Positions 37,615 to 53,987 of a stretch of DNA of 64,000 bases are shown here, one piece after another. The translations under genes and the position numbers were made by a program. The notes below the pieces were generated by a model, which was given only the letters and a program-made list of their open reading frames with translations, had not been told where the DNA came from and did no database searches. The stretch's first letter is position 1, and each line of letters begins with the position of its first letter. Source of the stretch: Desulfopila sp. IMCC35008 (lineage in GTDB: Bacteria; Desulfobacterota; Desulfobulbia; Desulfobulbales; Desulfocapsaceae). Where the stretch lies: the NCBI RefSeq assembly GCF_010646885.2, contig NZ_CP050700.1, positions 1,948,501-2,012,500 of the forward strand, written 5' to 3'.

Positions 37615-38640
37615 ATGACACATTCATACTCAATAAAAGGTAGCAAAATTCTTATAACCGGAGGTACCGGTTCTTTCGGCAAGGCGTTCGTGAGAACATT
37701 GCTGGAACGATATCCGGATATTAAGCGCTTAGTCGTATTCAGTCGAGACGAACTGAAACAATTCGAAATGGCGCAGGAATTTCCTGAAACGAAATATCGG
37801 AACCTTAGATATTTTATCGGTGATGTACGTGATCTTGATCGATTGCGTCGAGCGATGGAGGATATTGATACCGTCATTCATGCCGCTGCCCTTAAACAGG
37901 TCCCTGCAGCTGAATACAATCCATTTGAAGCAATAAAGACGAACATCTTGGGGGCGCAGAATGTAATTGAGGCAAGCCTTGACTCACAAGTTCGTCGGAT
38001 TGTTGCTTTATCGACAGATAAAGCTGCTGCTCCTATCAATCTCTATGGAGCAACAAAGCTTTGTTCTGATAAGCTTTTTACTGCTGCCAATAATATTAAA
38101 GGGCAACGGGACATGCGGTTCAGTGTGGTTCGTTATGGGAATGTCATGGGAAGCCGGGGGTCAGTTATCCCTTTTTTCTTAGATAAAAAGAATACAGGCT
38201 CCCTGCCGATTACCGATCCTGAGATGACGAGGTTCAATATTAGCTTGCAAGATGGTGTTGATATGGTCCTCTGGGCTCTGGAAAATACCAAAGGGGGGGA
38301 GATTTTTGTCCCTAAGATTCCAAGTTACAGAATTACAGATGTCGCTTCAGCCATATGTCCAAATTGCGATACACCAATTGTAGGTATCAGGCCAGGTGAG
38401 AAGATTCATGAAGAAATGATAACGGCCAGTGATAGCTTTAATACTGTCGACTTAGGTTGTTATTTCGCTATCTTGCCATCAGCCGGTCAGTATTCTGTTG
38501 AAACATACTGTGAAGAATGTGAGGGAACTCCTGTACAACCGGGTTTTGTATATAATAGTGGAACGAACAGTGATTTTTTGACGGTCAAGCAACTTTCCGA
38601 ACTTATTTCAGAGCATATAACACAGGAAGACCAAAAGTAA
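37615..38640 (+). CDS. pseB: UDP-GlcNAc 4,6-dehydratase (inverting), PseB
   Basis: The 341-residue SDR has ILITGGTGSFGKAFVRTLL, VFSRDELKQFEMAQEF, HAAALKQVPAAEYNPFEAIKTN, and the catalytic region LSTDKAAAPINLYGATKLCSDKLF, all typical of PseB/FlaA1. It converts UDP-GlcNAc to the 4-keto-6-deoxy-L-arabino sugar, the first step to pseudaminic acid. The C-terminal region has Cys residues (ICPNCDTP, EECEG), an uncommon but known extension style. It opens the pse gene block. Confidence 0.95.
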   Translation: MTHSYSIKGSKILITGGTGSFGKAFVRTLLERYPDIKRLVVFSRDELKQFEMAQEFPETKYRNLRYFIGDVRDLDRLRRAMEDIDTVIHAAALKQVPAAEYNPFEAIKTNILGAQNVIEASLDSQVRRIVALSTDKAAAPINLYGATKLCSDKLFTAANNIKGQRDMRFSVVRYGNVMGSRGSVIPFFLDKKNTGSLPITDPEMTRFNISLQDGVDMVLWALENTKGGEIFVPKIPSYRITDVASAICPNCDTPIVGIRPGEKIHEEMITASDSFNTVDLGCYFAILPSAGQYSVETYCEECEGTPVQPGFVYNSGTNSDFLTVKQLSELISEHITQEDQK

Positions 38641-38700
38641 GGGAAACAATTCTATTGGACGGCTTCAGGTCATGCAATTGAATATAGGGAATGCAGATCT

Positions 38701-39861
38701 ATGATACCATATGGACGTCAAGATATATGCCAGGAAGACATTGATGCGGTGGTACGTGTCTTACAGTCTGACTATCTAACTCAGGGGCCTATGGTTCCGA
38801 CATTTGAGAAAAAGATGGAAAGATATGTCGGCGCCAAACATGGTGTTGCTGTCAATAGCGCTACGTCAGCTTTACATTTGGCTTGTCTTGCTCTAGGGCT
38901 TGGTAAGGGGGACTGGCTTTGGACGACCCCTGTTTCTTTTGTTGCCTCTGCAAATTGTGGTCTATATTGTGGTGCAAAGGTTGATTTCGTAGATATTGAT
39001 CCCATTACATATAATTTATGCCCTAGAAAATTAGAGAATAAGCTACTACTTGCCGCAAAAGAAGGGCGGATGCCAAAAATTGTTGTAGCCGTTCATTTAT
39101 GTGGTCAGGCATGTGATATGAAGGCGTTGCATACCTTAGCCGGTCGCTACGGTTTTAAGTTGATAGAGGATGCTTCACACGCTGTAGGTGCAAAATACTG
39201 TGATGAGTTTATTGGTAACTGTAGTTATAGCGATATTACAGTATTTAGTTTTCATCCAGTCAAAATTATCACAACCGCTGAAGGAGGGATTGCGCTGACC
39301 CAATCCGCCGATCTGGCACAAAAAATGGCATTGCTGCGTAGTCATGGGATTACTCGCGACACAGACTTGATGACTCACGTAACTGACGGTAGTTGGTATT
39401 ATCAGCAACTAGACCTCGGTTTTAATTACAGAATGACAGACCTGCAGGCGGCGTTGGGGATTAGCCAACTCGATAGGCTGACCAATTTTATTAAAAAAAG
39501 GCATGCTATTGTTGGTAGGTATAATTCCCTTCTTGCAGATTTGCCAGTTGTAACCCCCTGGCAACATCCTGATACATATTCAAGTTATCATCTTTATGTT
39601 ATCCGTTTGGAGTTAGATAGGATTCAAAAGACTCATAGACAGGTTTTTGATAAATTAAGGGAAGCTGGAGTAGGTGTTAACCTTCACTATATACCAATAC
39701 ACACCCAACCATTTTATCAACAGATGGGCTTCGCCCAAGGTGATTATCCCGAAGCTGAAAAATATTATTCAGAGGCCATCAGTTTGCCTGTTTTTTCCAC
39801 GATGACTGAAGATCAGCAGGACACTGTTGTAAAAGCTCTAAAAGAGGCCGTGGGCTATTGA
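38701..39861 (+). CDS. pseC: PseC aminotransferase
   Basis: The 386-residue PLP enzyme belongs to the DegT/DnrJ/EryC1 class. PLP contacts include LIEDASHAVGAKY and the Schiff-base Lys188 in FSFHPVKIITTAEGG, and RSHGITRD and LGFNYRMTDLQAALGISQL follow. It transaminates the PseB product to the 4-amino sugar. Its stop overlaps the TTG start of pseF. Confidence 0.95.
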   Translation: MIPYGRQDICQEDIDAVVRVLQSDYLTQGPMVPTFEKKMERYVGAKHGVAVNSATSALHLACLALGLGKGDWLWTTPVSFVASANCGLYCGAKVDFVDIDPITYNLCPRKLENKLLLAAKEGRMPKIVVAVHLCGQACDMKALHTLAGRYGFKLIEDASHAVGAKYCDEFIGNCSYSDITVFSFHPVKIITTAEGGIALTQSADLAQKMALLRSHGITRDTDLMTHVTDGSWYYQQLDLGFNYRMTDLQAALGISQLDRLTNFIKKRHAIVGRYNSLLADLPVVTPWQHPDTYSSYHLYVIRLELDRIQKTHRQVFDKLREAGVGVNLHYIPIHTQPFYQQMGFAQGDYPEAEKYYSEAISLPVFSTMTEDQQDTVVKALKEAVGY

Positions 39862-40544
39862 ATATCGCAATAATCCCTGCACGAGGTGGCAGTAAAAGGA
39901 TTCCTCGAAAAAACATACGATCCTTTTACGGCAAGCCAATGATTTCCTACGCTATTGACTGCGCCAGGGAATCAGGCCTTTTTGAACATGTCGTGGTGTC
40001 TACCGAAGACCATGAGATAGCTGAGATAGCACAAGACTGCGGGGCAGAAGTGCCATTTTTTAGACCGGAACAGTTAGCAGATGATCACACTACGACAGTC
40101 AAAGTTGTTGAGCATGGGATTCAAATGTGTTGCGACCTTGGTTGGAAAATAAAGTATGTCTGCTGCATCTACCCCTGTACTCCTTTTATCCGAAAAGAGG
40201 ATTTGAAAGGTGCGTTCGATCTTTTGGTAAAAAGAGATGGCAAATTCTGTTTTCCTGTAACACGGTTTCCATCAGCAGTCCAGCGATCGCTGAGGTTAAC
40301 GGTTGATGGAAAAGTTGAACCGTTTTTTAAGGAGTATGTGCAAACCCGGACTCAGGATTTAGAAGTCCTTTTCCACGATACTGGACAATTTTACTGGGGA
40401 AACTGTGAGGCATGGCTACATAATGATTGTATTCACAGTGAAGGGATCGGTTATGAAATACCTCAATGGAGAGTCATTGATATCGACGAAGAAGCGGATT
40501 GGAATCGCGCTGAAAAACTCTATCAGGTAATCACTCACAAATGA
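39858..40544 (+). CDS. pseF: Pseudaminic acid cytidylyltransferase
   Basis: The 228-residue protein opens with the CMP-sugar synthase motif AIIPARGGSKRIPRKNI and continues with VVSTEDHEIAEIA and CCIYPCTPFI, characteristic of PseF rather than NeuA. It activates pseudaminic acid with CTP. The start is TTG, overlapping the pseC stop (TTGA), and the end overlaps the next ATG (ATGA), so the three genes are translationally coupled. Confidence 0.94.
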   Translation: MNIAIIPARGGSKRIPRKNIRSFYGKPMISYAIDCARESGLFEHVVVSTEDHEIAEIAQDCGAEVPFFRPEQLADDHTTTVKVVEHGIQMCCDLGWKIKYVCCIYPCTPFIRKEDLKGAFDLLVKRDGKFCFPVTRFPSAVQRSLRLTVDGKVEPFFKEYVQTRTQDLEVLFHDTGQFYWGNCEAWLHNDCIHSEGIGYEIPQWRVIDIDEEADWNRAEKLYQVITHK

Positions 40545-42070
40545 AGAATAGTCGTCAAATTGCTATTCGTGTTGATGCTTCAGAGGTTATAGGCACCGGG
40601 CATTTCATGCGATGTCTGACATTGGCAGACAGCCTGAATGCTTACTACAATGATATTACTTTTATCTGCCGCCACATGCCTAAACACTTTCAGGCGGAGA
40701 TAACGACCAGGGGATATCATTTTTCCAAACTTGATGGTGGCAGCAAAGAGGAAAGCTTCCAAGAGTCTTCTTATTATTGTGATTGGCTTGGAGTTGATCA
40801 GGTTGTTGACGCTAAGGCGACAATGAGGTTTCTTTCTCAAAACAAATTTGAAACCTTGATAGTCGATCATTACGCTCTTGATAATCGATGGGAATCAGCA
40901 GTGCGGCCTATGGTTGACCGGATTATGGTTATTGATGATCTTGCCAACCGCACCCATGATTGCGATATATTGCTGGACCAGAACTATTATCAGGATATGG
41001 AACAGCGATATCGAGATTTGGTGCCATCTTGCTGTACTAAGCTGTTGGGGCCTCGTTTTGCGTTACTTCGCAAGTCTTTTCTTGCAATGAGGAAAACGAC
41101 TGAAGTCAGATCTGGTCAGGTAAAAAGGCTCTTATTGTTTTTTGGTGGTGTGGATTTCCACAATTATACAACTTTAGCAATCAACGCATTGTTGTCACTT
41201 GATGTCAAGGGCGTAGATGTTGATGTCGTCATTGGTCGGCAACATCCTTTCAAGAAGGATATTTATCGAGTCTGCGAGGAATATGGTTTTACATGTCATA
41301 TTCAAACAGATGAAATTGAGAAATTGATGGCTTCAGCTGATCTATCAATCGGTGCCGGAGGTACAGTGACTATGGAACGATGCTGTCTTGGGTTGCCAAC
41401 AATGGTGGTGAGTACCGCTGAAAATCAGAATCAACAGGTCGGAGATGCTGCAGCAGCTGGGCTGGTTTATCTGATCTCGGGCTATGATGATTATACCGAA
41501 GCAATGAAATGTCACTTGAGATCTCTGTTCCAAAACGAGCACCTGCGAGAGCATATCTCACATACTGGGATGATGCTGGTCGACGGTAAGGGCTGTCAGA
41601 GGGTGACGAGTTTTCTCAATGGACAGTCGATAAAAATCAGGGAGGCTGACTCCAGCGATTTAGAGAAAATATATGAGTGGCGGAACCATCCAGATGTTCG
41701 TTCCGTATCACGGGAAACAGAAGCGCTATCGTTTGAAGCTCATAAAGAGTGGTTTGCAAAGGTTTTAGAATCACAGAAACGATTATTGCTGCTTGGTTTT
41801 CTTGGTGATATCCCTGTGGGCGTAGTGCGTTTTGATATATATGATACATCGGGCGAAGTATCAATATATCGTACTCCAATCAGTGACAGCGGTCTGGGAC
41901 ATGGACTTTTGATGGCTGCTGAGAATTGGTTAATTACGAATCGCCCTGACATTTCCGTCCTTATGGCCTGCGTGCTTGAAAACAATGTATCATCACATAG
42001 GCTGTTTGCAAATGCAGGGTATTGCATTGATCAAACAAGCTACAGGAAGAGAGTTAACTCAGATGAGTGA
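40541..42070 (+). CDS. pseG: PseG-PseH fusion: nucleotide-sugar hydrolase plus N-acetyltransferase
   Basis: The 509-residue protein joins two pathway enzymes. Residues 1-355 match PseG, the UDP-sugar hydrolase with a MurG-like GT-B fold (IAIRVDASEVIGTGHFMRCL at the start, LIVDHYALD, LLFFGGVDFHNYT, SIGAGGTVTMERCCLGLP). Residues about 360-509 are a GNAT domain like PseH (IKIREADSSDLEKIYEWRNHP, PISDSGLGHGLLMAAENWL, ENNVSSHRLFANAGY). Together they would acetylate the 4-amino group and release the free sugar. It overlaps pseF by 4 bp and pseI by 8 bp. Confidence 0.92.
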   Translation: MKNSRQIAIRVDASEVIGTGHFMRCLTLADSLNAYYNDITFICRHMPKHFQAEITTRGYHFSKLDGGSKEESFQESSYYCDWLGVDQVVDAKATMRFLSQNKFETLIVDHYALDNRWESAVRPMVDRIMVIDDLANRTHDCDILLDQNYYQDMEQRYRDLVPSCCTKLLGPRFALLRKSFLAMRKTTEVRSGQVKRLLLFFGGVDFHNYTTLAINALLSLDVKGVDVDVVIGRQHPFKKDIYRVCEEYGFTCHIQTDEIEKLMASADLSIGAGGTVTMERCCLGLPTMVVSTAENQNQQVGDAAAAGLVYLISGYDDYTEAMKCHLRSLFQNEHLREHISHTGMMLVDGKGCQRVTSFLNGQSIKIREADSSDLEKIYEWRNHPDVRSVSRETEALSFEAHKEWFAKVLESQKRLLLLGFLGDIPVGVVRFDIYDTSGEVSIYRTPISDSGLGHGLLMAAENWLITNRPDISVLMACVLENNVSSHRLFANAGYCIDQTSYRKRVNSDE

Positions 42071-43118
42071 AAGTATACAGATTGCTGACAGGGCTGTTGG
42101 TATAGAAGAACCTCCTTTTATTATTGCTGAAATGTCTGGTAATCATAACCAGTCTTTGGAACGCGCTCTCGAGATTGTGGAAGCCGCTGCAAAAGCAGGT
42201 GCTCATGCTTTAAAAATTCAAACGTATACACCTGATACCATGACCCTTGATGTGAAGGGTGAAGGGTTTGTGATAAGGGATGGTGAAAGCCTCTGGGATG
42301 GCAGATCCTTGTATGATTTATATCAGGAGGCGCATACGCCATGGGAATGGCATAAGGCGATCTTTGATAAATCCAGAGAATTAGGCATGATTCCATTCAG
42401 TACACCTTTTGATGAATCATCGGTCGATTTTCTTGAGGAGCTAGATACTCCCTGCTATAAAATTGCTTCTTTTGAAAATATTGACATACCCCTCATCAAG
42501 CGTGTCGCACAAACAGGTAAACCACTGATTATTTCTACGGGAATGGCATCTGTTGCTGAATTGGACGAAGCTGTCAGCACTGCTCGAAGTGCTGGTGCTA
42601 AAGAGCTGGTTTTACTAAAATGCACAAGTACATATCCTGCTTCTCCAGCTGATACGAATATCTCGACCATTCCTCACATGAAGAAGCTTTTTGATTGTGA
42701 GGTAGGGTTGTCTGATCATACGCGGGGCTTGGGTGTTGCTGTCGCAAGTGTTGCGTTGGGAGCCACCGTGATTGAAAAGCACTTTACAGTAGACAGGAGT
42801 GCCGGAGGTGTTGACAGTGCTTTTTCGTTAGAACCGGCTGAGATGCAAAATCTCGTTGAGGAAACAGCGAGGGCTTGGGAATCTCTGGGAAGTGTAATGT
42901 ATGGACCAACAAGTAGAGAAAAGAAGTCTCTTAATTTTAGACGCTCCCTCTATGTTACGAAGGATATGAAGGTTGGTGAGGTATTAACCTCTGAAAATGT
43001 TAGAGCTATTAGGCCGGGGTATGGATTGGCTCCCAAATTCCATGATATTGTTATAGGAAGGAAAGTAACTAAAAATGTTAGCATTGGAACTCCTCTATCT
43101 TGGGATCTAATTTTGTAG
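42063..43118 (+). CDS. pseI: Pseudaminic acid synthase
   Basis: The start MSESIQIADRAVGIEEPPF at 42063 overlaps the end of the fusion gene; a longer in-frame extension reads through coding sequence of that gene and is rejected. The 351-residue protein has the NeuB-type barrel (FIIAEMSGNHNQSLERALEI, FSTPFDESSVDFLEELDTPCYKIASFE, LKCTSTYPASPADTNI, GLSDHTRGLGVAVASVALGA, EKHFTVDRSAGGVDSAFSLEP) and a C-terminal antifreeze-like SAF domain (about 285-345). It condenses the 6-deoxy-2,4-diacetamido sugar with phosphoenolpyruvate to give pseudaminic acid. Confidence 0.95.
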   Translation: MSESIQIADRAVGIEEPPFIIAEMSGNHNQSLERALEIVEAAAKAGAHALKIQTYTPDTMTLDVKGEGFVIRDGESLWDGRSLYDLYQEAHTPWEWHKAIFDKSRELGMIPFSTPFDESSVDFLEELDTPCYKIASFENIDIPLIKRVAQTGKPLIISTGMASVAELDEAVSTARSAGAKELVLLKCTSTYPASPADTNISTIPHMKKLFDCEVGLSDHTRGLGVAVASVALGATVIEKHFTVDRSAGGVDSAFSLEPAEMQNLVEETARAWESLGSVMYGPTSREKKSLNFRRSLYVTKDMKVGEVLTSENVRAIRPGYGLAPKFHDIVIGRKVTKNVSIGTPLSWDLIL

Positions 43119-43179
43119 ACTTTGTAGATTGATATAAATCAATTTTATTTGTAAAAAATTATCATCATGGCCATACCTT

Positions 43180-44169
43180 ATGAAAATGGATACATTTGAT
43201 TATAAAGGTTATTCGGAAGATGAATTACTATTGTTATGTAATGAAAATGCTACAAAAAATAATGAGAAATGCTATAAGTATTGGGTATCAGAAGTATATT
43301 CTATAGGCCGATTGATTAGAGATTATGGATTCTATCCACAGTTTCTTCCACTTTATGTATATTCAAATCATGGTGTTACTTTTGATTACAAAGATAATGG
43401 CATACCTGAGCATGAAAGAAATAATGATGCTTTCTGCATGTTTTGTTACGATAATGATAACACCAAATACTATAGAAAAAATACAGGTAAGAGATGCTAC
43501 ACCTTATTTTCTCCCTTTGTTTTTTATCGGAGAAAAATGAAAATACAGCAGGATGCTGATAGTTCAGGAACACTGGTTTTTCCAGCTCATACTACACCTA
43601 ATATTAGCAATGTTTCTAATGTTTCAAAATTTATTGATGACTTAAATGAGTTGCCTGATTCACATCAACCAGTTTGTGTGTGTCTCCATTACCATGATAT
43701 TGTAAATGGAGATTATAAAATATACTTAGATAATAAAATTCCAGTGTACACAGCAGGGAGTCCTTATGATCCTATTTTTGTTGAAAGATTATACAGCTTG
43801 TTGAAGATGTTCAAATATAGTGCATCTAATCAAATAGGTACATATACTTATTATAGTATTGAAATGGGTATTCCATTTTTTATTATTGGAGAGCGTCCTC
43901 GATTGATAAATCATAATGACATGCAGATAAAGAAGGGTGTTTTAGAATTGACAGAACATGATAAGTATAGTGATATGTTTAATAAAGATGTATTAGAATT
44001 ATCTAAAGATAAGATAGAGCTTTGTAGAGATAAATTAGGTCTTGATTATGGTGTTAGTCGTATCAAAATGGCCCTGATTTTATACTCTTCTGTCTTGGAA
44101 AGATATTGGAGAAAGATTCGTTTTAATATGAGAAAAAGCTTTGTGAATGTGATTGTACATATTGAATAA
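43180..44169 (+). CDS. Unknown protein, possible GT-B-type glycosyltransferase
   Basis: The 329-residue protein is coded in very AT-rich DNA. I do not recognise a named family. The C-terminal half has an order of segments seen in some capsule and sialic-acid-type GT-B enzymes: VCVCLHYHDI near 165, IPVYTAGSPYDPIFVERLYSL near 188, then SASNQIGTYTYYSIEMGIPFFIIGE near 213-240, which resembles the donor-site pattern S-x2-G-x4-A-x3-G-x-P. No signal peptide or membrane helix is apparent. Its place right after pseI suggests it may transfer a nonulosonate, but this is inference only. Confidence 0.65.
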   Translation: MKMDTFDYKGYSEDELLLLCNENATKNNEKCYKYWVSEVYSIGRLIRDYGFYPQFLPLYVYSNHGVTFDYKDNGIPEHERNNDAFCMFCYDNDNTKYYRKNTGKRCYTLFSPFVFYRRKMKIQQDADSSGTLVFPAHTTPNISNVSNVSKFIDDLNELPDSHQPVCVCLHYHDIVNGDYKIYLDNKIPVYTAGSPYDPIFVERLYSLLKMFKYSASNQIGTYTYYSIEMGIPFFIIGERPRLINHNDMQIKKGVLELTEHDKYSDMFNKDVLELSKDKIELCRDKLGLDYGVSRIKMALILYSSVLERYWRKIRFNMRKSFVNVIVHIE

Positions 44170-44429
44170 AATGTCCTAATATGGGCAGTGTTTTTTTAGT
44201 CTGAGGTAATATGATTTTGATTAAAAAAGTGGAATACATCAAGCTGTGCAGAACATTGTATTAAAACTAGATAGTTAACTATGTAGATGTTTGTAGTGCT
44301 AATCATTGGCGGATATTGTTTCGGAAAGGGTAGAGATGTATGTGAGTAAACATAATTTTTGTCAACACTGAACCTAAAGCATTTCATAACCTTAATGATT
44401 TTTATATTAAACAATAAGTACAATAATAT
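44170..44429. other. AT-rich intergenic stretch
   Basis: These 260 bp between the unknown protein and the FkbM-type gene contain no recognisable gene, hairpin or repeat. A promoter could be hidden in the AT-rich sequence, but no single candidate stands out. Confidence 0.5.
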
Positions 44430-45233
44430 ATGGTTTTAAATATGTTTAGAAAATACTTCTCACTTTTGAAAAATACTGAAAAGGCATTATCTTTCAAAGA
44501 GTGGCGAAAGCTTAAATCTATGCCGAGATACACTCCTGTAGAGACTAAACTGTACGGAGTTGTTATTAAATCTAATGATTCTTGTACATTGTTGGGAGAT
44601 ATTGATGGTATACTTAATAAGGGTGTATACCAATTCATGTCAGAATCTAGTCGTCCAGTTATTGTAGATTGTGGCGCAAATATTGGTATGAGTATAGTTT
44701 ACTTCAAACGATTATATCCTGGTGCCAAAATAATTGCTTTCGAACCAGACCCAAACCTTTTCGACATACTTTCTTGTAATATCGATAGTTTTATGTTTAA
44801 CGATATTGAATTAGTTCAAAAAGCATTATGGGTGCACAATGATGGAGTATTGTTTGATGTTGAAGGTGGCCATTCTGGGGCTATTCATATGCAAGGTCAA
44901 AATGATAATAATACCGTTAAGGTTCAATCTATACGACTAAAAGATGTTTTATGTGAGTATGAAAAAATTGATATGCTCAAAATTGATATAGAGGGAGCTG
45001 AAAATGAAGTCATATTTGATTGTGATAATGAATTATCAAGATGCGATCATATTTTTATTGAATATCATTCAAGGAATGGCTCTGAACAACGGTTACATGA
45101 AATATTATATTTATTAAACAAGTTGAACTATCGTTATCACATTCACGAGGCGTTTACTAGATACCAACCTTTTGTGGATCGAAACTGTATGGTAGGAATG
45201 GATTTGCAGCTTAATTTATTCTTTTATAAATAA
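44430..45233 (+). CDS. FkbM-family methyltransferase
   Basis: The 267-residue protein has the SAM-binding core of FkbM-type enzymes: VIVDCGANIGMSIVYFKRLYPGAKIIAFEPDP near residue 75-107, a KIDIEGAENEVIFD segment near 185-198, and IFIEYHSRNGSE near 208. The family O-methylates sugars and polyketides. In this setting it probably methylates a glycan residue. An ATG four codons downstream (44442) is also a possible start. Confidence 0.9.
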   Translation: MVLNMFRKYFSLLKNTEKALSFKEWRKLKSMPRYTPVETKLYGVVIKSNDSCTLLGDIDGILNKGVYQFMSESSRPVIVDCGANIGMSIVYFKRLYPGAKIIAFEPDPNLFDILSCNIDSFMFNDIELVQKALWVHNDGVLFDVEGGHSGAIHMQGQNDNNTVKVQSIRLKDVLCEYEKIDMLKIDIEGAENEVIFDCDNELSRCDHIFIEYHSRNGSEQRLHEILYLLNKLNYRYHIHEAFTRYQPFVDRNCMVGMDLQLNLFFYK

Positions 45234-45239
45234 CTGATT

Positions 45240-46067
45240 ATGGAAGAATTAGTAACAGTTGTTGTGCCTATATGGAAGGATAATTTGTCCAAATTTGAAA
45301 AAATATCACTAGAGCAAAATTCAACCATACTTAACAAGCATCACTTTACAATTGCAACAAACAAGAATGTTGACCTAGAACGTGTTGAAACAATCTTAAG
45401 TAAAAATAATGTAAATTATTCAGTAAAATACTTTCACAAGGATTACTTCACAAATATTGAAGGTTACAATAGATTGCTATTGTCATTAAGATTTTACTTA
45501 AAATTTGTAAATTTTAAATATATATTGATATGCCAGCTTGACACATTTGTTTTCAAAGATGATTTAGTTTATTGGGTTAACAACGGTTATTCATATATAG
45601 GGGCTCCTTGGCTTGAATGTTACGAAAGTGCCGATGAACGGTCATCAATTATTGGTATAGGTAATGGTGGTCTGTCATTGAGAAATGTGACTGACCAATT
45701 AAAAGTACTATTAACATTTAAATATATCGAAGATGTTCACATATATAGAAATAACATACTCAACACTGAAGGAACATTGCCAGGCAGGATCTTATTGTTT
45801 TTGAAAATGACTATTTTTAGAAATAATACATTCTTTCTTTTTAATAATTGGAAAAAAAATGAAGATATATTCTGGTGCACAATTGGCTCAAGAAATACTT
45901 GGTACAATCTGCCAAACGCAGAAATAGCTTCACAGTTTAGTGTAGAACTTCAACCTGAAAGGTTTATAAAGGGAGATGAAACCCTGCCGTTCGGCTGTCA
46001 TGCATGGTGGAAATATGATCTGGAATTTTGGAAACCATATATTAATTCTTATGGACATGATGTATAA
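45240..46067 (+). CDS. DUF5672-like protein, putative glycosyltransferase
   Basis: The 275-residue protein starts with VTVVVPIWKDNLSKFEKISLEQ, then FKYILICQLDTFVFKDDLVYWVNNGYSYIGAPW (near 97-125, with a possible metal-binding Asp) and GIGNGGLSLRNV (near 140). These are the features I know from DUF5672, a family commonly found among polysaccharide genes with a GT-A-like fold. Catalytic activity is not proven. It sits between two methyltransferase genes in the AT-rich island. Confidence 0.82.
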   Translation: MEELVTVVVPIWKDNLSKFEKISLEQNSTILNKHHFTIATNKNVDLERVETILSKNNVNYSVKYFHKDYFTNIEGYNRLLLSLRFYLKFVNFKYILICQLDTFVFKDDLVYWVNNGYSYIGAPWLECYESADERSSIIGIGNGGLSLRNVTDQLKVLLTFKYIEDVHIYRNNILNTEGTLPGRILLFLKMTIFRNNTFFLFNNWKKNEDIFWCTIGSRNTWYNLPNAEIASQFSVELQPERFIKGDETLPFGCHAWWKYDLEFWKPYINSYGHDV

Positions 46068-46087
46068 AACAACTTTTAATAAATGAT

Positions 46088-46855
46088 ATGTTAAATAAAG
46101 ACCTTACTCATAAGTATAATAGTGTATATAAAAATAACTCCAAAATGTTTTACACTTACAACTCATATCCTGAATCAAAATTGATAATGGAAATGCTTCC
46201 ATCATGGAATAATAAAAAGGTATTAGAGATTGGTTGCGGAGAAGGACGGCTTGCAGCGATGATAAGTTTTGCAGGTGCAAAAACAGTTGATGCAACAGAT
46301 TATAGTGAAGAAGCAATAAAGATTGCTAGGTCAAATTTTCATATTGAAAATGTTACTTATCAATGTTCGGATTATCGTGATTTTAAACAAAAATATGATG
46401 TTGTTGTTTTACAAGGGGTGCTTGAACATTTAGATAATCCGTTTGAAGAATTAAAAAATATTTTCTACACATGTGTGAATGAAGGAGGATGGCTGATCAC
46501 TTCCTCACCTTCATTTATCAATCCACGAGGGTATGTGTGGATGGCACTCCAACTTCTTTTAGATGTACCAATGTCACTAACAGATCTTCATTTTCTATGT
46601 CCCTTTGATTTTGAAGAGTTTGCATCAAGGTATGATTTAGAATTGGAATATAAATCAACAGATTTTGATTGGGCGAGTGGAGACAGGTTAATAATTGATT
46701 TTGAAAAGAGATTAAGAAACGCACTTAGAGATGCAAATTTGGATAACTCTAAGGTTGATCGTTTTCTTAAATGGTTAGAGAAAGCCGCTCCATGTCATTT
46801 GCATGATGATAGGAGTGGAACAACAATAGCGTATCGTTTTAAAAAAAAATCATAA
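46088..46855 (+). CDS. Class I SAM-dependent methyltransferase
   Basis: The 255-residue protein has motif I VLEIGCGEGRLAAMISFAG near residue 39-58 and motif IV YDVVVLQGVLEHLDNPFEELKNIF near 101, the Methyltransf_11/23 pattern. The remainder includes FLCPFDFEEFASRYDLELEY. Its substrate is unknown but is probably a sugar of the exported glycan. It is the last gene of the strongly AT-rich block. Confidence 0.88.
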   Translation: MLNKDLTHKYNSVYKNNSKMFYTYNSYPESKLIMEMLPSWNNKKVLEIGCGEGRLAAMISFAGAKTVDATDYSEEAIKIARSNFHIENVTYQCSDYRDFKQKYDVVVLQGVLEHLDNPFEELKNIFYTCVNEGGWLITSSPSFINPRGYVWMALQLLLDVPMSLTDLHFLCPFDFEEFASRYDLELEYKSTDFDWASGDRLIIDFEKRLRNALRDANLDNSKVDRFLKWLEKAAPCHLHDDRSGTTIAYRFKKKS

Positions 46856-46864
46856 GAGACCTTA

Positions 46865-47551
46865 ATGTTGAAATGTTTAGCTATAATTCCTGCTCGCGGT
46901 GGCTCCAAAGGTATCCCTGGTAAAAATATCATACCAATAGGGGGACACCCTTTAATATATTACAATATACATGCTGCTCAGAAGTCACGATATATAGAGA
47001 GACTTATTGTTTCAACAGATGATCATGAGATTTCGGAAGTAGCGCTAAAAGAGGGTGCTGAAGTTGTAATAAGACCTTCTGATATAAGTGGTGATTTGGC
47101 TTCTTCTGAGCTCGCGCTGATATATACACTCGATGAGTTGTATAAAACAGAGAATTATCAACCAGATATACTCGTTTTTTTGCAATGCACATCTCCACTT
47201 ACCACTACGGAAGATATTGACCAGACTATAGGTAAACTTATAGAGGAAGATGGCGATTCAGCACTGACTGTTGCCCCCTTTCACTATTATTTATGGAAGA
47301 ATGATCATAACGGCGAACTTGTAGGTATAAATCATGATAAATACCATCGTCCGATGAGGCAGGAGAGAGAAAAACAGTACATAGAAACTGGAGCGGTTTA
47401 CGTAATGAGAGTACAGGAGTTCTTACAACGTAAATACCGTTTTTTTGGAAAAGTTGTAATGTCTGTCATGCCTGAAGAACGATGTTTTGAAATCGACGTG
47501 CCGGCTGATTTGCTCATAGCAGAACAATTGCTTCATCAACAAAATAAATAA
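46865..47551 (+). CDS. Acylneuraminate cytidylyltransferase-like protein (second CMP-nonulosonate synthase)
   Basis: The 228-residue protein begins LAIIPARGGSKGIPGKNIIPIGG and contains IVSTDDHEISEVA, FLQCTSPLTTTEDIDQTI and YIETGAVYVMRVQEF, closer to NeuA/legionaminate-type CMP transferases than to the PseF upstream. It would couple CMP to a nonulosonic acid made by the synthase 19 bp downstream. Two CMP-nonulosonate synthases in one cluster point to two different acidic sugars. Confidence 0.92.
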   Translation: MLKCLAIIPARGGSKGIPGKNIIPIGGHPLIYYNIHAAQKSRYIERLIVSTDDHEISEVALKEGAEVVIRPSDISGDLASSELALIYTLDELYKTENYQPDILVFLQCTSPLTTTEDIDQTIGKLIEEDGDSALTVAPFHYYLWKNDHNGELVGINHDKYHRPMRQEREKQYIETGAVYVMRVQEFLQRKYRFFGKVVMSVMPEERCFEIDVPADLLIAEQLLHQQNK

Positions 47552-47570
47552 TGGTATTAAGGTTCTGGGC

Positions 47571-49820
47571 ATGATTATAGATAGAGAAATTTCAAAATAC
47601 ATTGTTTTTAGTGAAGACCCCATAGTTCGTGGCTTGGAGAAGATGGATGCGAACAACATGAGGATAATCTTTATTGTGTCTGAAACTGGCGTACTAGAAG
47701 GTATTGTCTCAGACGGAGATGTTCGAAGATGGTTGATAGAGAAGCAAAATAATACAGATATCCAGAAGCCAATAATAGATATTTGCAATAAAAGCTTTGA
47801 ATATTCTTCTGTTAATGAACACCCTGCCGATTTAAGCAAACGTTTTTCAAGCAGGATTGAATATGTCCCCCTTGTTGATGACAAATTTCATCTCATTGCT
47901 ATAGCTAGTAAACGCGTTCCATCTTTGATTATTGATTCTACCGAAATCTCTAATGAAAGTAATACATTCATAATTGCTGAAATCGGCAACAACCATAATG
48001 GGGACATTGCATTTGCAAAGAAACTTGTAGATGCTGCTGTAGATGCTGGTGCTGACTGTGTAAAGTTTCAAATGCGGGACCTGACTGAGCTCTATAGCAA
48101 TACCGGCAATGCTAATGATGCAAAGGAAGACCTAGGTTCTCAGTATGTCCTCGATCTACTCAGTAAATATCAGTTATCCAATGACGAACTCATAGAAATA
48201 TTTGATTATTGTAAACAGGTAGGCACAATTCCTTTATGCACTCCGTGGGATCAGCCATCTATAGATTTTCTTGATGAATATGGAATGCAGGCTTTTAAAA
48301 TAGCATCTGCAGATTTCACCAATCATGACTTTTTGAAAAGTATCGCAGAAAAAGGGAAAGTGATGATTTGTTCCACCGGTATGTGTAATGAACAGGAGGT
48401 AAAAGCAGGTGTTGATATTCTAAAAAGAATAGGTGCTAAATTCATATTGTTACACTGTAACTCAACGTATCCTGCTCCTTTTAAAGACATAAACCTTAAC
48501 TACCTAGACCGACTAGGTGAGTTGAGTCCTTTTCCTGTTGGCTATTCAGGTCACGAAAGAGGAGGGAGTATTGCGCAAGCTGCTGTTGCTAAGGGTGCTA
48601 AGGTAATAGAAAAACACTTTACTCTTGATAGATCAATGGAGGGAAATGATCATAAAATAAGCCTCCTTCCTCATGAATTTAAAGAAATGGTTCAAGGAAT
48701 CAGATCTATTGAGTTGGCTTTAGGGACCTCTGGCAATCGTGATATTACTCAAGGAGAACTTATAAACAGGGAAAGTTTAGCAAAAAGTCTTGTTATTAAT
48801 CAGGAATTGAAAAAGGGGGAACGTATTCTTGAGGGGATGGTTGAGGTTAAAAGTCCTGGCAAGGGGCTGGCCCCCTACAAAAAAAATGAACTGATCGGAT
48901 TAGAAGCCTCACGTGATTTTAAAAAAGGTGATTTTTTCTATCCTGAGGATATTGAAGGTTTGGAGGTAGAACCAAGAGATTTTAAATTTACTCATAGATA
49001 TGGTGTGCCTGTCAGGTATCATGATGCAGTTCAAATTGCCTCCAGTTGTTCCTTAGACTTACTCGAAATTCACCTTAGTTATAAAGATTTGGAAGAAGAT
49101 TTTGAAAAATTCTTCAGTGAAGCTTTTTCTCATGACTTAGTGGTACATAGCCCAGAACTTTTTGAAGGTGATCATATTTTGGATCTTTGTACCCCTGATC
49201 ATGATTATCGATCTAGATCGATAACTGAACTTCAAAGAGTCGTAGATATAACTAGGAAATTGAAGTCGTATTTTCCTAGCTCTGATTGCCCTTTGATAGT
49301 ACTAAACCCAGGTGGTTTTAGTGCTGATGGGTTTATCGCAAAGGAAGTGAGGAAAGAGTACTACGAAATTCTTATTGATAGTCTGAACCAGGTAGATCAG
49401 GACGGAGTTGAAATTATACCGCAAACCATGCCTCCGTATCCTTGGCATTTCGGAGGACAGAGATTTCATAACTTGTTTATTGATTCTAGTGAAATACTAG
49501 ATTTTTGTACATCACACGGGTTTCGAATTTGTTTAGACTTGTCCCATTCAAAATTGGCATGTAATTTTACCAAATACCCATTTTCTAGATTTATTGAAGA
49601 TATTGCCCATGTTACTGCTCACATGCATATTGCGGATGCAAAGGGCCTTGATGGAGAAGGGCTCCAGATAGGAGATGGAGAAATAGATTTTGGTATGTTG
49701 ATGAAAGTACTTCAAGAAAAGATACCACATGCATCCTTTATTCCAGAAATTTGGCAGGGACATAAGAACGGTGGCAAGGGATTCTGGATAGCATTAGATC
49801 ATCTAGAAAAATATAGTTAA
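47571..49820 (+). CDS. CBS - NeuB-like synthase - SAF - TIM-barrel isomerase fusion
   Basis: The 749-residue protein appears to hold four modules: a CBS-domain pair (about 1-120; GIVSDGDVRRWL), a NeuB-type condensing barrel (about 130-385; FIIAEIGNNHNGDIAFAKKLV, KIASADFTNHDF, HCNSTYPAPFKDINL, EKHFTLDRSMEGNDHKISL), a SAF domain (about 395-465), and a C-terminal xylose-isomerase-like TIM barrel (about 470-749; CLDLSHSKLA, HMHIADAKG and PEIWQGH as likely metal-site strands). The NeuB part should join PEP to an N-acyl hexosamine. The last domain could supply or modify the substrate, since no NeuC-type epimerase is seen. The CBS pair may bind a nucleotide regulator. The module order is clear; the combined activity is inference. 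Confidence 0.85.
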   Translation: MIIDREISKYIVFSEDPIVRGLEKMDANNMRIIFIVSETGVLEGIVSDGDVRRWLIEKQNNTDIQKPIIDICNKSFEYSSVNEHPADLSKRFSSRIEYVPLVDDKFHLIAIASKRVPSLIIDSTEISNESNTFIIAEIGNNHNGDIAFAKKLVDAAVDAGADCVKFQMRDLTELYSNTGNANDAKEDLGSQYVLDLLSKYQLSNDELIEIFDYCKQVGTIPLCTPWDQPSIDFLDEYGMQAFKIASADFTNHDFLKSIAEKGKVMICSTGMCNEQEVKAGVDILKRIGAKFILLHCNSTYPAPFKDINLNYLDRLGELSPFPVGYSGHERGGSIAQAAVAKGAKVIEKHFTLDRSMEGNDHKISLLPHEFKEMVQGIRSIELALGTSGNRDITQGELINRESLAKSLVINQELKKGERILEGMVEVKSPGKGLAPYKKNELIGLEASRDFKKGDFFYPEDIEGLEVEPRDFKFTHRYGVPVRYHDAVQIASSCSLDLLEIHLSYKDLEEDFEKFFSEAFSHDLVVHSPELFEGDHILDLCTPDHDYRSRSITELQRVVDITRKLKSYFPSSDCPLIVLNPGGFSADGFIAKEVRKEYYEILIDSLNQVDQDGVEIIPQTMPPYPWHFGGQRFHNLFIDSSEILDFCTSHGFRICLDLSHSKLACNFTKYPFSRFIEDIAHVTAHMHIADAKGLDGEGLQIGDGEIDFGMLMKVLQEKIPHASFIPEIWQGHKNGGKGFWIALDHLEKYS

Positions 49821-49897
49821 ATAACATTTAAGAAAAGACCAACAGTTATTTATTCCAGTATAAATTATTATATAGCTAAGACTCATCATCACTTCAC

Positions 49898-50653
49898 ATG
49901 TTCCCAAAAAACCGCCCACTTGTTTCCGTAGTTACAGTATGTTTCAACGAAGAAGATCGCATTAGAGACACTGCAGAATCAGTTGTATCTCAGATATCTA
50001 ATAATTACGAATGGATTATAGTTGATGGTGGGTCCACTGACAATACCCTGGAAGTTTTAAAAGAATATGGTGATAAAATTGATGTGATGATATCCGAGAA
50101 GGATTCTGGTGTTTACAACGCTATGAACAAAGGAATCCGAGCATCAAGTGGGGAATTTTGTATATTTATTAATGGTGGGGACAAGTTTTACGATAAAGAT
50201 GCTATTGAGAAATTTGAATGTGAAAAGGAAAAGGCAGATATAAATTACGGGGGCATATACGAAATCAATAAAGTTAAGAATAACGTGAAAGTTAAATTCT
50301 TACAGCCAGTTGAAGATTATGCATACTACCTGTATCATCGTTGTTTGCCACATCAGTCAACATTTATAAGTAGAAAATTGTTAGAAGAATTAGCCTGTTA
50401 TGATGAGAGTTATGTCGTCAATTCAGATTGGGACTTTTATTCAAAGGCTATCGTTAAGAATCAATCAACCGTTAAACATTTATCTTACATAGTTTCAGTA
50501 TTCTATTTTGATGGCTTGAGTGCGCATACTAAAGGCAGTTTAGCTAATCAAGAAGAATCAAAAAAAATCAGAAAAAAATACTTTAATTTAATGTTTAGAA
50601 TTAGATTATTCGTTAATATCTTAATCAGCAGGTTGATTGGACGAAATATATGA
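49898..50653 (+). CDS. GT2-family glycosyltransferase
   Basis: The 251-residue GT-A protein opens VSVVTVCFNEEDRIRDTAES and has WIIVDGGSTDNTLEVLKEY and EKDSGVYNAMNKGIRASSGE, a pattern typical of WcaA/WcaE-like colanic acid transferases. The usual DXD is represented by INGGDKFY. Its stop overlaps the start of the next gene (ATGA at 50650-50653). The sugar is unknown. Confidence 0.92.
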   Translation: MFPKNRPLVSVVTVCFNEEDRIRDTAESVVSQISNNYEWIIVDGGSTDNTLEVLKEYGDKIDVMISEKDSGVYNAMNKGIRASSGEFCIFINGGDKFYDKDAIEKFECEKEKADINYGGIYEINKVKNNVKVKFLQPVEDYAYYLYHRCLPHQSTFISRKLLEELACYDESYVVNSDWDFYSKAIVKNQSTVKHLSYIVSVFYFDGLSAHTKGSLANQEESKKIRKKYFNLMFRIRLFVNILISRLIGRNI

Positions 50654-51525
50654 AGACCAAGTCACGCGAAGATAAAAGCAGTATCATATTAATGTGTGCT
50701 TATATGGGGCCGTTACCTTATTGGATGCCAGCATTTATGGCATCTTGTCGGAAAAACCCTGATGTCAATTGGCTCATCGTTACGAATATGGATCAATCTG
50801 CTTTGCCTGATGGTCCATCTAATGTTCGTTTTTTGAATATAGATCTGAAAGATTTTAATGATAGGGTTTCGTCATCTTTGAAAATACCGGTAAATGTTAA
50901 ACCGGAATATGCCTATAAGATTAACGATTTCAAAGTGGCATATGGAAAAATATTTTCAAAAGAATTCGAAGGTTATGATTTTTGGGGTTACTGTGATCTT
51001 GATGTTGTTTGGGGTGATATCAAGAAATTCATCACCCCTGAAATTCTTTTAAAATATGAAATGATAACTTCCAGAATTGACCGCATATCTGGACATTTCT
51101 GCCTGTTCAAGAATGAAAATAGATTTAATGAGATGTATAAGGACATTCCTAATGTAAAAACCATGATGGCAGCAGAAAGGAATTACGCCATTGATGAGGA
51201 ATTTATTACGAATTATTTATACATGGTCCATAAACCAAATTGGGTAATACGGTTAAAGTATTTCAATAAATTTGGTGGTTTTGTTAAGCCCAATGTCTAT
51301 TGGAACAAGGTATTGACCACCAGCGGTGCCCACCAACGTGCGTTAGGAGATGGTACGAAAAGACATTTCTTGTGGAAAAATGGACAGGTATTCGATGCTG
51401 ATGAGACTGAATTAATGTATATCCATTTTCATAAAATGAAAAAAGATATGCACACAATTAATTTCGACTACAATGATAGCGTAAACGAATTTATCATCAA
51501 CAGAGAAGGTCTTTTTCTTTCATGA
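50650..51525 (+). CDS. DUF6625-like protein, putative GT-A glycosyltransferase
   Basis: The 291-residue protein has SIILMCAYMGPLPYWMPAFM near the start, NDFKVAYGKIFSKEFEGYDFWGYCDLDVVWGD near 90-122 with an Asp-x-Asp pair (CDLD), and a TSRIDRISGHFCLFKN segment. I recall these as DUF6625 features, a family in capsule and LPS clusters that is probably a glycosyltransferase. It is coupled by 4-bp overlaps to both neighbours. Confidence 0.82.
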   Translation: MKTKSREDKSSIILMCAYMGPLPYWMPAFMASCRKNPDVNWLIVTNMDQSALPDGPSNVRFLNIDLKDFNDRVSSSLKIPVNVKPEYAYKINDFKVAYGKIFSKEFEGYDFWGYCDLDVVWGDIKKFITPEILLKYEMITSRIDRISGHFCLFKNENRFNEMYKDIPNVKTMMAAERNYAIDEEFITNYLYMVHKPNWVIRLKYFNKFGGFVKPNVYWNKVLTTSGAHQRALGDGTKRHFLWKNGQVFDADETELMYIHFHKMKKDMHTINFDYNDSVNEFIINREGLFLS

Positions 51526-52886
51526 ATCATTCACAAAAGATACCAGTAATTATCCCTGTAGAGACAAAATCTCGGGAGTTCCATGGAAAACTCTTTCTCG
51601 CACTAGAACTGTTACGACGTGGACACCCTGTTCTTTTCGGAGACCAGGTTCGCTTATGGGATTATTGCGATTTAATTGAACCATCAATATATCTCGACAA
51701 AAGTGTTGCTGCTACAAGAAAAGATTGGTTTGAGCGATGTCTGTCTATGGGCCATAAAGTTGTTTCATGGGATGAAGAAGGGCTTGTATTCTTCAATACC
51801 TGGATGTTTAGGAAGCTGCGCATAGATCCACAAGCATTTAATCAAGTAGAAAAATTCTTTGCCTGGGGCTCAGTACAAAAAGATGCAATATGTGAAGAGT
51901 ACCAGGATTTTAGCAGTAAGATTGTTATTTGTGGAAATCCGAGATTTGATTTTTTAAGGGAAGAACTACGTAAATTTTATTTGCCTAAGGTTCAGGAGTT
52001 AAAGAACAAATTTGGAAAAATGTTACTGGTCAATACGAATTTTGCATTTTTCAACCATTACAAAACACAAGATGAATTAAAGACAATGCTCGCCCACTAT
52101 CCACTAGCCGATGAACCGGGTTATTTGGATGGTTGGATTGAAATGCATAGGGTTGCTCATAATTCATTTATTGAAATGGTACCTGAACTATTATCCAGGT
52201 ATCCTGATTATACTATTGTGGTAAGGCCACACCCTTCTGAGAGCCATAATCCATGGTTGGAACTGGCAGAAAATAATCAAAGACTTCATGTCGATGCTAC
52301 CGGTAATGTACACGAATGGATACTTGCATCAGAAGCAGTTATCCATTTTAACTGCACAACAGCTGTTGAGTCATACTTGCTAGGGATTCTACCCATAGCA
52401 TATAGAGCTGAGGAGTTTCCTCGTTATGAAAATGATCTTCCTAACTCGCTAAGTACTAATGTCTATAATCTTGATGAGCTTTGGGATGCCTTAGAAAGTC
52501 GAAATGATCAATCCTTTAAAAACGAATTTTGGAATGATGGGAGAAGAAGAATTATAGAAAAACATATTATCAGCCAATCAGGTGAAAGTGCAGCAGAGAG
52601 AATCGCAAATGAAATTACCGGGATTGCTGAAAACTTCGAAGGGGAGGGTACAGGCTCGCTTGTGAAGTTTTTAAGAAAAATTAAACGGTTTTGGCGTATC
52701 AATCTCCATTGCTACAGAGAAACTGTCAATCCGCCTGATGGTTATACGGACCAAAAATTTCCAGGGATGAGAAAAAGTGAGATAGAGCAAGATTTGAAAA
52801 GAATGAAACAATTATCTTCTATTGAAACTCAGTTCAGCGTTAGTAAATATGCAAAAAATTGTTATTGGTTAAAACCAATTGTTTAA
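51522..52886 (+). CDS. Surface carbohydrate biosynthesis protein, GT-B-like
   Basis: The 454-residue protein resembles the surface-polysaccharide family that begins IPVIIPVETKSREFHGKLFLALELLRRGHPV and continues with KVVSWDEEGLVFFN, GNPRFDFLR and VVRPHPSE. A donor-site-like stretch HWILASEAVIHFNCTTAVESYLLG near 270-290 is also typical (first residue approximate). Related proteins are thought to transfer sugars or polyol phosphates. It overlaps the upstream gene by 4 bp. Exact chemistry is unknown. Confidence 0.82.
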   Translation: MNHSQKIPVIIPVETKSREFHGKLFLALELLRRGHPVLFGDQVRLWDYCDLIEPSIYLDKSVAATRKDWFERCLSMGHKVVSWDEEGLVFFNTWMFRKLRIDPQAFNQVEKFFAWGSVQKDAICEEYQDFSSKIVICGNPRFDFLREELRKFYLPKVQELKNKFGKMLLVNTNFAFFNHYKTQDELKTMLAHYPLADEPGYLDGWIEMHRVAHNSFIEMVPELLSRYPDYTIVVRPHPSESHNPWLELAENNQRLHVDATGNVHEWILASEAVIHFNCTTAVESYLLGILPIAYRAEEFPRYENDLPNSLSTNVYNLDELWDALESRNDQSFKNEFWNDGRRRIIEKHIISQSGESAAERIANEITGIAENFEGEGTGSLVKFLRKIKRFWRINLHCYRETVNPPDGYTDQKFPGMRKSEIEQDLKRMKQLSSIETQFSVSKYAKNCYWLKPIV

Positions 52887-52948
52887 CCCTTTTACGATGA
52901 GTCTCTTCAATTTAACCACTGTTATAGATAGTGGTGCTAGATCTTAAG

Positions 52949-53929
52949 ATGCAATTATCAAAAAAAGTTTCTGTTATTATACCGACATATAATCGTTCCA
53001 GGGTTTTAAAGGATTCCATAGAATCGGTTCTGAAACAAAGATATCGCCCTCTGGAACTTGTGGTAGTTGATGATGGTTCAAAAGATTCTACGAGAGATCA
53101 TGTTGAAAAATTCTCAAAATCTGCTTCGGACAGTGGAATCTCATTAAAATGGCTAACACAGGAGAACAAGGGAGTGTCAGCCGCTAGAAATTATGGGTTT
53201 AAAGAGAGTAGTGGTGACTATGTATTGTTTCATGATTCAGATGATTTGCTAGGTGAAAACAGAATTCAACTGCAGGTCGATAAATTAGAATCTACCAATT
53301 GTGAATTATGTGCCGCCAGTATAGTGAGATTCAAAGGTAGTGATGAAATCATTAGTCACTATACTCCAAAGGCTCATGATAACGATAAACTTACCCCAGT
53401 TGAAATTGCTCAAGTGCATTGGGGCACACAGATTTTCATGTATAGAAGGTCTATTATAGAAAGTTTTATGTGGGATGAGAATATCTCATGTGCGGAGGAT
53501 GTTGATTATAATTTCAGGGTATTGTATCAAGGCAACGTTGGGGTTTGTCTAGAACCTGAGGCCTATACAAAAATCCGGGAGACCGATGATGGGTTGAGAT
53601 TGAGTCATATGCCAAGTGGTATGGACTCGCATATCGCAGTCAGAAAACGTGTTCTCGATTATTATCGTAATAACAACCTGGCAGACAATATCCCTGTCGC
53701 TCAATCTATTCTGTTACGAACAACCACTATGTTATGGAAAAACGGTTCAAAAAAGAAAGCCAAGGAACTGTTCTCTTATATTCAACCGTTTCATAAAAAT
53801 GTTATTTATGGTGGAATTGGAGAGCGGCTTTCTTTAATACTTAAGTCGTGTAGGTTATTCTGTACTATCAGGCTTGCTAATGAGTGGTATGGTTCTTTGA
53901 GGAGAGGTTTACTGTCGTTTCGACAGTAA
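52949..53929 (+). CDS. GT2-family glycosyltransferase
   Basis: I place the start at the ATG at 52949 (MQLSKKVSVIIPTYNRS); an in-frame GTG six codons upstream is possible. The 326-residue protein has VSVIIPTYNRSRVLKDSIES, LVVVDDGSKDSTRD, NKGVSAARNYGFKESSGD and the metal-binding HDSDDLL, a canonical GT2 pattern. The C-terminal 90 residues are helical and basic. It would add one sugar at the inner leaflet. Confidence 0.92.
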   Translation: MQLSKKVSVIIPTYNRSRVLKDSIESVLKQRYRPLELVVVDDGSKDSTRDHVEKFSKSASDSGISLKWLTQENKGVSAARNYGFKESSGDYVLFHDSDDLLGENRIQLQVDKLESTNCELCAASIVRFKGSDEIISHYTPKAHDNDKLTPVEIAQVHWGTQIFMYRRSIIESFMWDENISCAEDVDYNFRVLYQGNVGVCLEPEAYTKIRETDDGLRLSHMPSGMDSHIAVRKRVLDYYRNNNLADNIPVAQSILLRTTTMLWKNGSKKKAKELFSYIQPFHKNVIYGGIGERLSLILKSCRLFCTIRLANEWYGSLRRGLLSFRQ

Positions 53930-53987
53930 AGATAGTATTACTCAACAAACATTTAATTTTATATTTATAAATCAATTTGAGGTAAGT

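Follow-up and report, generated by a model that had tools for sequence, protein, structure and literature searches.

A predicted GT-B protein encoded behind pseI is a candidate CMP-nonulosonate transferase of an unnamed sequence family

The attachment of pseudaminic acid (Pse), Leg and related sugars is among the least-known parts of nonulosonate biology, and one paper describes pseudaminic acids, and the responsible enzymes especially, as underexplored (PMC7910423). The window, by which we mean the whole 64,000-nucleotide stretch of Desulfopila sp. IMCC35008 DNA analyzed here, raises the question of this step at a single gene. An ATG-initiated open reading frame for a 329-residue protein (43180..44169, + strand) begins 62 bp behind the pseudaminic acid synthase gene pseI, and the original prediction saw in its product a candidate for transferring a CMP-activated sugar. 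What does this protein do? Below, the label FAM is used for the unnamed family to which it belongs.

The gene lies, as claimed, between the pse genes and a second synthase, all of which are identified by Pfam and NCBIfam matches. Upstream, pseB, pseC, pseF and a fused pseG-pseH gene (37615..42070, +) score over the cut-offs of TIGR03589, TIGR03588, TIGR03584 and TIGR03590, and the PseH domain of the fusion matches TIGR03585 with an E-value of 4.5e-15, which is below the cut-off of that model. The pseI gene (42063..43118, +) matches TIGR03586 over its cut-off with an E-value of 1e-150. Judged by these profiles, the CMP-Pse pathway beside the FAM gene is complete with pseI, as it is in two other FAM loci (L018 and L022), and therefore no synthesis step that needs a GT-B enzyme is left for FAM. 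This speaks against the possibility that FAM makes or modifies the sugar as a GT-B-fold hydrolase of the PseG type or an epimerase of the NeuC type and is no transferase at all. NeuC and UDP-GlcNAc 2-epimerases are among its structural matches, but the PseG step is already present in the adjoining PseG-PseH fusion, the PseG equivalog profile does not match FAM and no profile comparison links the two, so that we regard this as the least probable of the explanations considered. The fusion itself (40541-42070) is 509 residues long, and L018 contains a matching open reading frame of 508 residues.

Downstream of the FAM gene are an FkbM methyltransferase (44430..45233, +; PF05050, 1.2e-20), a DUF5672 protein (45240..46067, +; PF18922, 7.5e-46), a further methyltransferase and then, for a second nonulosonate, a second CMP-sugar synthetase with its synthase (46865..49820, +; Pfam and NCBIfam). 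This second synthase (47571-49820) is a 749-residue fusion of CBS, NeuB, SAF and xylose-isomerase-like TIM-barrel domains. Farther along, a TIGR04396 protein (51522..52886, +; E-value of 4.5e-109) is the probable partner of the second synthase; it also matches the BFO_1060 glycosyltransferase model at 9.5e-32, below the cut-off of that model. The original prediction held that no other gene here clearly transfers a CMP-activated sugar, and this part of it fails, as the TIGR04396 protein is a second candidate.

The absence of a named domain was borne out. Searches of Pfam, NCBIfam and PHROGs with the window protein gave nothing significant, and phmmer against the PDB sequences gave no match. An HNH nuclease match in NCBIfam (E-value of 0.065), a PHROG match (0.13) and a MOB1 match in the PDB (0.0087) were dismissed as noise, the last of which was not recovered with a larger profile. 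A chance reading frame is ruled out by the homologues that the protein and profile searches returned. Fourteen members, gathered by these searches without the use of motif patterns, are alignable across the greater part of their length and have invariant residues in common, and hence 43180-44169 is a true gene.

FAM is thinly but widely distributed. The host genome has a single copy, and matches were found in 2 of 58 relatives, 6 of 395 genomes of the phylum and 5 of 257 genomes of the order, each count including the window's own genome; E. coli genomes gave no DNA match to the gene. One scan of genome contigs with a six-member alignment yielded 38 loci whose record titles name cyanobacteria, Bacteroidota, Chloroflexi, actinomycetes, Planctomycetes, Verrucomicrobia, Ignavibacteria, KSB1, Firmicutes, a Treponema and delta-proteobacterial groups. 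A Nonomuraea record has a member as well (found with the L018 relative as the query), and three copies, all annotated as ‘hypothetical protein’, are on plasmids, two in Azospirillum and one in Aureibacter. As far as the sequences go, FAM is a coherent unnamed family with a patchy presence across many phyla. No paper among those listed by the literature searches describes it. As far as these searches show, FAM is thus new as a sequence family within the libraries and literature covered, whereas the kind of enzyme is already known.

The patterns used in the 38-locus scan contained FPxHS and AGH. As the conservation of these two motifs is therefore partly a matter of construction, we also quote the 14 pattern-free members, all of which have Y40, H64, H137, D173, G193, F200 and G287, numbered as in the window protein. 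Two rows were dropped before alignment A5 (L030 for a masked run of N, L052 for a short reading frame). An alignment of 37 rows has H64 and H137 in all 37, D173 in 35 and Gly65 in 31. His64 (codon at 43369..43371, +) belongs to an (E/P/N)HG motif. His137 belongs to FPAHTT (43579..43596, +; FPxHST in the family), a mid-protein strand and loop with which the presumed donor domain starts, and Asp173 to CLHYHD (43681..43698, +; CLYWKD in the family) at the end of a strand of that domain. The window protein is the only one of the 37 rows that lacks His140, Trp171 and His194. The same three residues are missing from the pattern-free relatives L002, L015 and L016, which group with the window copy, a long-branch member, in a poorly supported part of the family tree. 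Because these residues are missing, the window subgroup may have diverged functionally.

The predicted fold is GT-B. AlphaFold2 produced confident models of two members, the window protein (37 rows, pLDDT of 87.8, pTM of 0.87) and its L018 relative (38 rows, pLDDT of 94.2, pTM of 0.91). The segment SNQIGTYTYYSIEMGIPFFI (residues 216-235; 43825..43884, +), which the original prediction had likened to the donor sites of GT-B enzymes, forms the end of a strand (213-216), a helix (221-228) and another strand (233-235) in the model of the window protein. Its place is the usual one, as GT-B enzymes commonly hold the donor in the matching region.

All the top VIA rows are GT-B proteins; the first five align 240-255 residues at Z-scores of about 10-11. 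For the window model TagF comes first (Z of 10.5, 242 residues aligned, 4.4 Å). For the L018 model the order is TarL (Z of 11.2, 240 residues, 3.9 Å), TagF (Z of 11.1, 245 residues, 4.1 Å), the CMP-bound capsule multienzyme 8a0c (Z of 10.7, 255 residues, 4.4 Å) and a UDP-GlcNAc 2-epimerase (Z of 10.5). The best neighbors are hence enzymes that release CMP (TarL, TagF and 8a0c), but the margins are small: differences in Z of less than 1 are ties, and so the epimerases match nearly as well. The best Foldseek matches are likewise GT-B enzymes, many of which carry UDP sugars, but their TM-scores are low (about 0.3-0.4). The polysialyltransferase 5wcn, a bacterial enzyme, is in 28th place with an E-value of 4.7e-3. 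Other sialyltransferase folds and those of WbbB and KpsC are not among the best 50 Foldseek or VIA rows, which excludes nothing. A shared fold alone says nothing of function.

In the profile comparison, the TagF-like set was the best with a score of 33.9 at an hhalign probability of 17%, followed by the GT4 and PseG sets at up to 25.9, the unrelated sets at up to 21.2 and the PF05159 set at 19.9; the FkbM rows (scores of 55 and 350) were set aside, as the FkbM set contains FAM-FkbM fusions. The weak alignment places His64 of FAM on the WHG histidine of TagF-type enzymes, which is His444 of TagF (the residue replaced in the H444N chain).

TagF and TarL are CDP-alditol phosphate polymerases, the donor of which releases CMP, and could FAM be an enzyme of this type, which moves an alditol phosphate from CDP-glycerol or CDP-ribitol onto a glycan? 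The fold, the closest structural matches, the best profile score (33.9 against at most 25.9 for the other GT-B sets) and the HG histidine are all shared. However, the hhalign probability is low, PF04464 matches neither the window protein nor any of the 14 members to an E-value of 1, and the motifs of the donor domain differ. Furthermore, FAM keeps company with the genes of CMP-nonulosonates, as counted for NeuB-type synthases, and its presumed reaction is a glycosyl rather than a phosphoalditol transfer. Such a phosphotransferase is, in our estimate, highly unlikely.

Profiles of known transferases of CMP-activated sugars gave no significant match either. The Pfam profiles of the GT29, GT38, GT42, GT52 and GT80 sialyltransferases do not match the window protein to an E-value of 10 or the 14 members to an E-value of 1. 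PF07922 (GT52) returned nothing from the window's genome or phylum, nor from its 14 controls, so that this search says nothing either way. PF01973, which we take to be the Maf profile, does not match the window protein and finds one of the 14 members at an E-value of 0.06 only; of 11 Pse-type genomes with FAM, 10 lack a match to it. In the window's genome, profile searches with PF05159, PF04464 and PF01973 returned no match. Maf flagellin glycosyltransferases, which transfer Pse according to two papers (PMC4065374, PMC11339370), would resemble FAM in the presumed sugar and differ from it in these matches.

PMC12887879 assigns modified GT-B folds to WbbB and KpsC and describes two motifs of retaining Kdo transferases, QXXXD with the nucleophile and (K/R)XHP. 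With these Kdo transferases (GT99, GT107 and GT140) and with KpsS1, a retaining Pse transferase (GT118), FAM would share the use of CMP-activated keto-acid sugars, but it has neither (K/R)XHP nor a conserved QXXXD; from KpsS1 it is set apart by description. At the place of (K/R)XHP, as equated by the order of strands and not by superposition, FAM reads YWKD, with exceptions such as L002, which reads LIHPD. The window protein contains a literal QQDAD (residues 122-126), which is not conserved in the family. Membership in the PF05159 group (GT99, GT107 and GT118) was rejected on the profile score of 19.9 and on the motifs. The missing CMP-binding motif (K/R)XHP counts against a CMP-nonulosonate transferase.

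Evidence for such a transferase comes from the company that the family keeps. NeuB or PseI is encoded within about 10 kb of 21 of 30 FAM loci and of none of 40 GT4 control loci (Fisher p of 3.7e-11). The 30 loci, which come from many phyla, are non-redundant, extend at least 8 kb to both sides and were sorted and de-duplicated by hand, with the near-copies L019 and L020 both counted. The controls, chosen manually among the top matches listed and mostly one per genome, all come from the window's phylum and lie on stretches of up to 20 kb, of which 11 were shorter than 19.9 kb. NeuB was called in both sets by phmmer against the two synthases of the window (E-value of 1e-10), by which distant NeuB proteins may be missed in either. 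At the level of whole genomes, a strong NeuB (E-value of at most 1e-40) is present in 40 of 43 FAM hosts as compared to about 103 of 297 genomes in a sample of the window's phylum (a hand count that took in 224 of 225 rows). The three other hosts are G647, G648 and G048, the last with a partial match that spans 88 of 241 positions; the virus contig G669 was not counted. In eight loci (the window, L017, L018, L019, L020, L022, L034 and L058) the FAM gene directly follows pseI, within about 220 bp or, in L018 and L058, overlapping it; for L034 this was judged from the start of the FAM domain. Homologues thus occur mainly in nonulosonate clusters, and as it accompanies their genes, FAM is a good candidate for attaching a sialic-acid-like sugar to the surface. 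With the GT-B fold and the counts of 21 of 30 against 0 of 40, neither of the two refuting outcomes named in the original prediction occurred and its proposal of a CMP-sugar transferase is supported. We infer from the models and the gene neighborhoods that FAM is rather likely a new sequence family of CMP-nonulosonate transferases.

The main competing explanation is that FAM is a GT-B enzyme of nonulosonate glycans that uses a UDP or GDP sugar, for example to add the residue before or after the nonulosonate, while transfer of the nonulosonate itself falls to the TIGR04396 protein or another enzyme. The presence of a TIGR04396 protein in the window, the many UDP-sugar enzymes among the GT-B matches and the 9 of 30 loci without a NeuB nearby agree with this. 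In two of these nine (G376 and G266), the contig carries a NeuB at a distance of 14-18 kb. On the other hand, the order pseI-FAM recurs across phyla, and TIGR04396 is found in only two of nine tested FAM genomes (the window's and G513), several of the other seven having the Pse set. In addition, L005, L018 and L024 already contain GT2 and GT4-type genes. We typed eight neighboring reading frames with Pfam in L018, two in L022 and five each in L005 and L024, and the recognized transferases among the 18 neighbors in L005, L018 and L024 (5, 8 and 5) are of the GT2 and GT4/GT1-domain types, which are not known to use CMP sugars. Two of these neighbors, L005:6060-7106 and L024:8972-9991, had no Pfam match; they could be unrecognized transferases, which would be a point against FAM as the nonulosonate transferase. 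On balance, we consider the use of a UDP or GDP sugar unlikely. L024:8972-9991, from Chitinophaga polysaccharea, encodes 339 residues and lies directly upstream of the FAM gene.

If FAM does transfer nonulosonates, the donor need not always be Pse, since 10 of 20 neighboring NeuB-type synthases are below the cut-offs of both PseI and NnaB, at least three of these ten being short reading frames; eight are over the PseI cut-off and two over the NnaB cut-off. FAM seems to serve more than one sugar. The type of synthase did not cluster beyond shuffled assignments on the FAM tree, the bootstrap of which had not converged.

Which of the two candidates in the window would move which sugar? In G513 the FAM gene adjoins pseI, and TIGR04396 is encoded on another contig behind a second NeuB and a CMP synthetase. 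G503 (78% complete) has the order pseB-pseC-pseF-pseI-FAM-FkbM-DUF5672, and its pseI product is its sole NeuB. From these two arrangements we infer that FAM serves Pse and the TIGR04396 protein the second sugar. The two families show no profile similarity (probability of 0.3%): both adjoin nonulosonate synthases, but TIGR04396 goes with the second one. The base composition admits another assignment. The GC content of the window falls from 43% in the pse genes to 30% at FAM, and as the second nonulosonate pathway shares this low-GC stretch, the donor of FAM could be the second sugar. G503 shows the same fall at the corresponding place (from 41% to 32%), which suggests that FAM, FkbM and DUF5672 form a cassette that was added behind a conserved Pse block. 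The low-GC stretch (43100-54700) starts behind pseI and has about 31-40% GC per kb against a background of mostly 40-49%.

Between the window and G503, FAM is the most diverged of the seven genes with 30% identity, as compared to 52-54% for FkbM and DUF5672, 48-60% for PseB, PseC and PseF and 67% for PseI. One may expect such divergence of a transferase that is specific for its acceptor. FkbM adjoins FAM also in G503 (L058) and in L035, and the DUF5672 protein is possibly a partner enzyme of the two. The trio of FAM, FkbM and DUF5672 genes occurs in both the window and G503, and a DUF5672-like reading frame is present in L035.

Several members are fused to other enzymes: to TylF and Methyltransf_24 domains (L020 and L032), to Methyltransf_24 (L041 and, with the domain just below its cut-off, L023), to Methyltransf_11 (L038), to FkbM (L029 and, by phmmer only, L031) and to a sulfotransferase (L037). 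Fusion of a transferase with finishing enzymes is in keeping with a role in glycan assembly. The long fusions L020:10007-12844 and L032:9953-12865, from a cyanobacterium and an Ignavibacteria metagenome-assembled genome, also contain weak TPR matches.

The putative mechanism would then be as follows. FAM, a cytoplasmic GT-B enzyme, would accept a CMP-activated nonulosonic acid as its donor and transfer the sugar to a growing surface glycan. In the window this donor would most likely be CMP-pseudaminic acid, the product of the upstream pse genes. The putative C-terminal donor domain with the motifs FPxHST, CLYWKD, AGHxxDPxF and SNxxGS would bind the CMP donor, with His137, the YWKD and AGH segments and the SNxxGS loop arranged around CMP and the sugar acid. 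The general base is proposed to be His64, from the HG motif of the N-terminal domain. The reaction is probably inverting, as no conserved aspartate is found at the place of the nucleophile of the retaining Kdo enzymes. The FkbM methyltransferase encoded behind FAM probably methylates the product, because methyltransferases are repeatedly fused to FAM.

A system with a similar gene order is described in two papers on Tannerella forsythia (PMC6120980, PMC6388019), where GtfS, a transferase of a Pse derivative, is reported to be of the GT-B type with 445 residues and a DXD motif, its gene number follows that of pseI (Tanf_01240, Tanf_01245) and its deletion mutant lacks both the Pse derivative at the terminal position and one methyl group. 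By these descriptions, GtfS resembles FAM in the GT-B type and in the position behind pseI and differs from it in length (445 versus 329 residues) and in the reported DXD motif. The joint loss of the methyl group and the Pse derivative is a parallel to the FAM-methyltransferase fusions and no more.

More tentatively, at just short of an even chance, we propose that FAM founds a family of CMP-nonulosonate transferases that arose from a TagF-like, CMP-releasing branch of the GT-B enzymes. In this family the HG histidine would act as the base, FPxHST and YWKD would take the place of (K/R)XHP, the donors would include Pse, Neu/Leg-type and unassigned nonulosonates in many phyla, and the repeatedly fused O-methyltransferases or a sulfotransferase would finish the sugar. 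A family with a single sequence signature would offer a testable candidate for the attachment step in many genomes, supply new enzymes for glycan synthesis and mark nonulosonate glycans in environmental bacteria.

Viral sequences were searched as well. The window protein alone gave no match there, and phage records gave none with the L018 protein. With a query alignment (A3), one member was found on an IMG/VR contig classed as viral (L055:10016-10894); NeuB is absent from this record, and the member is 41% identical to the first sequence of the query.
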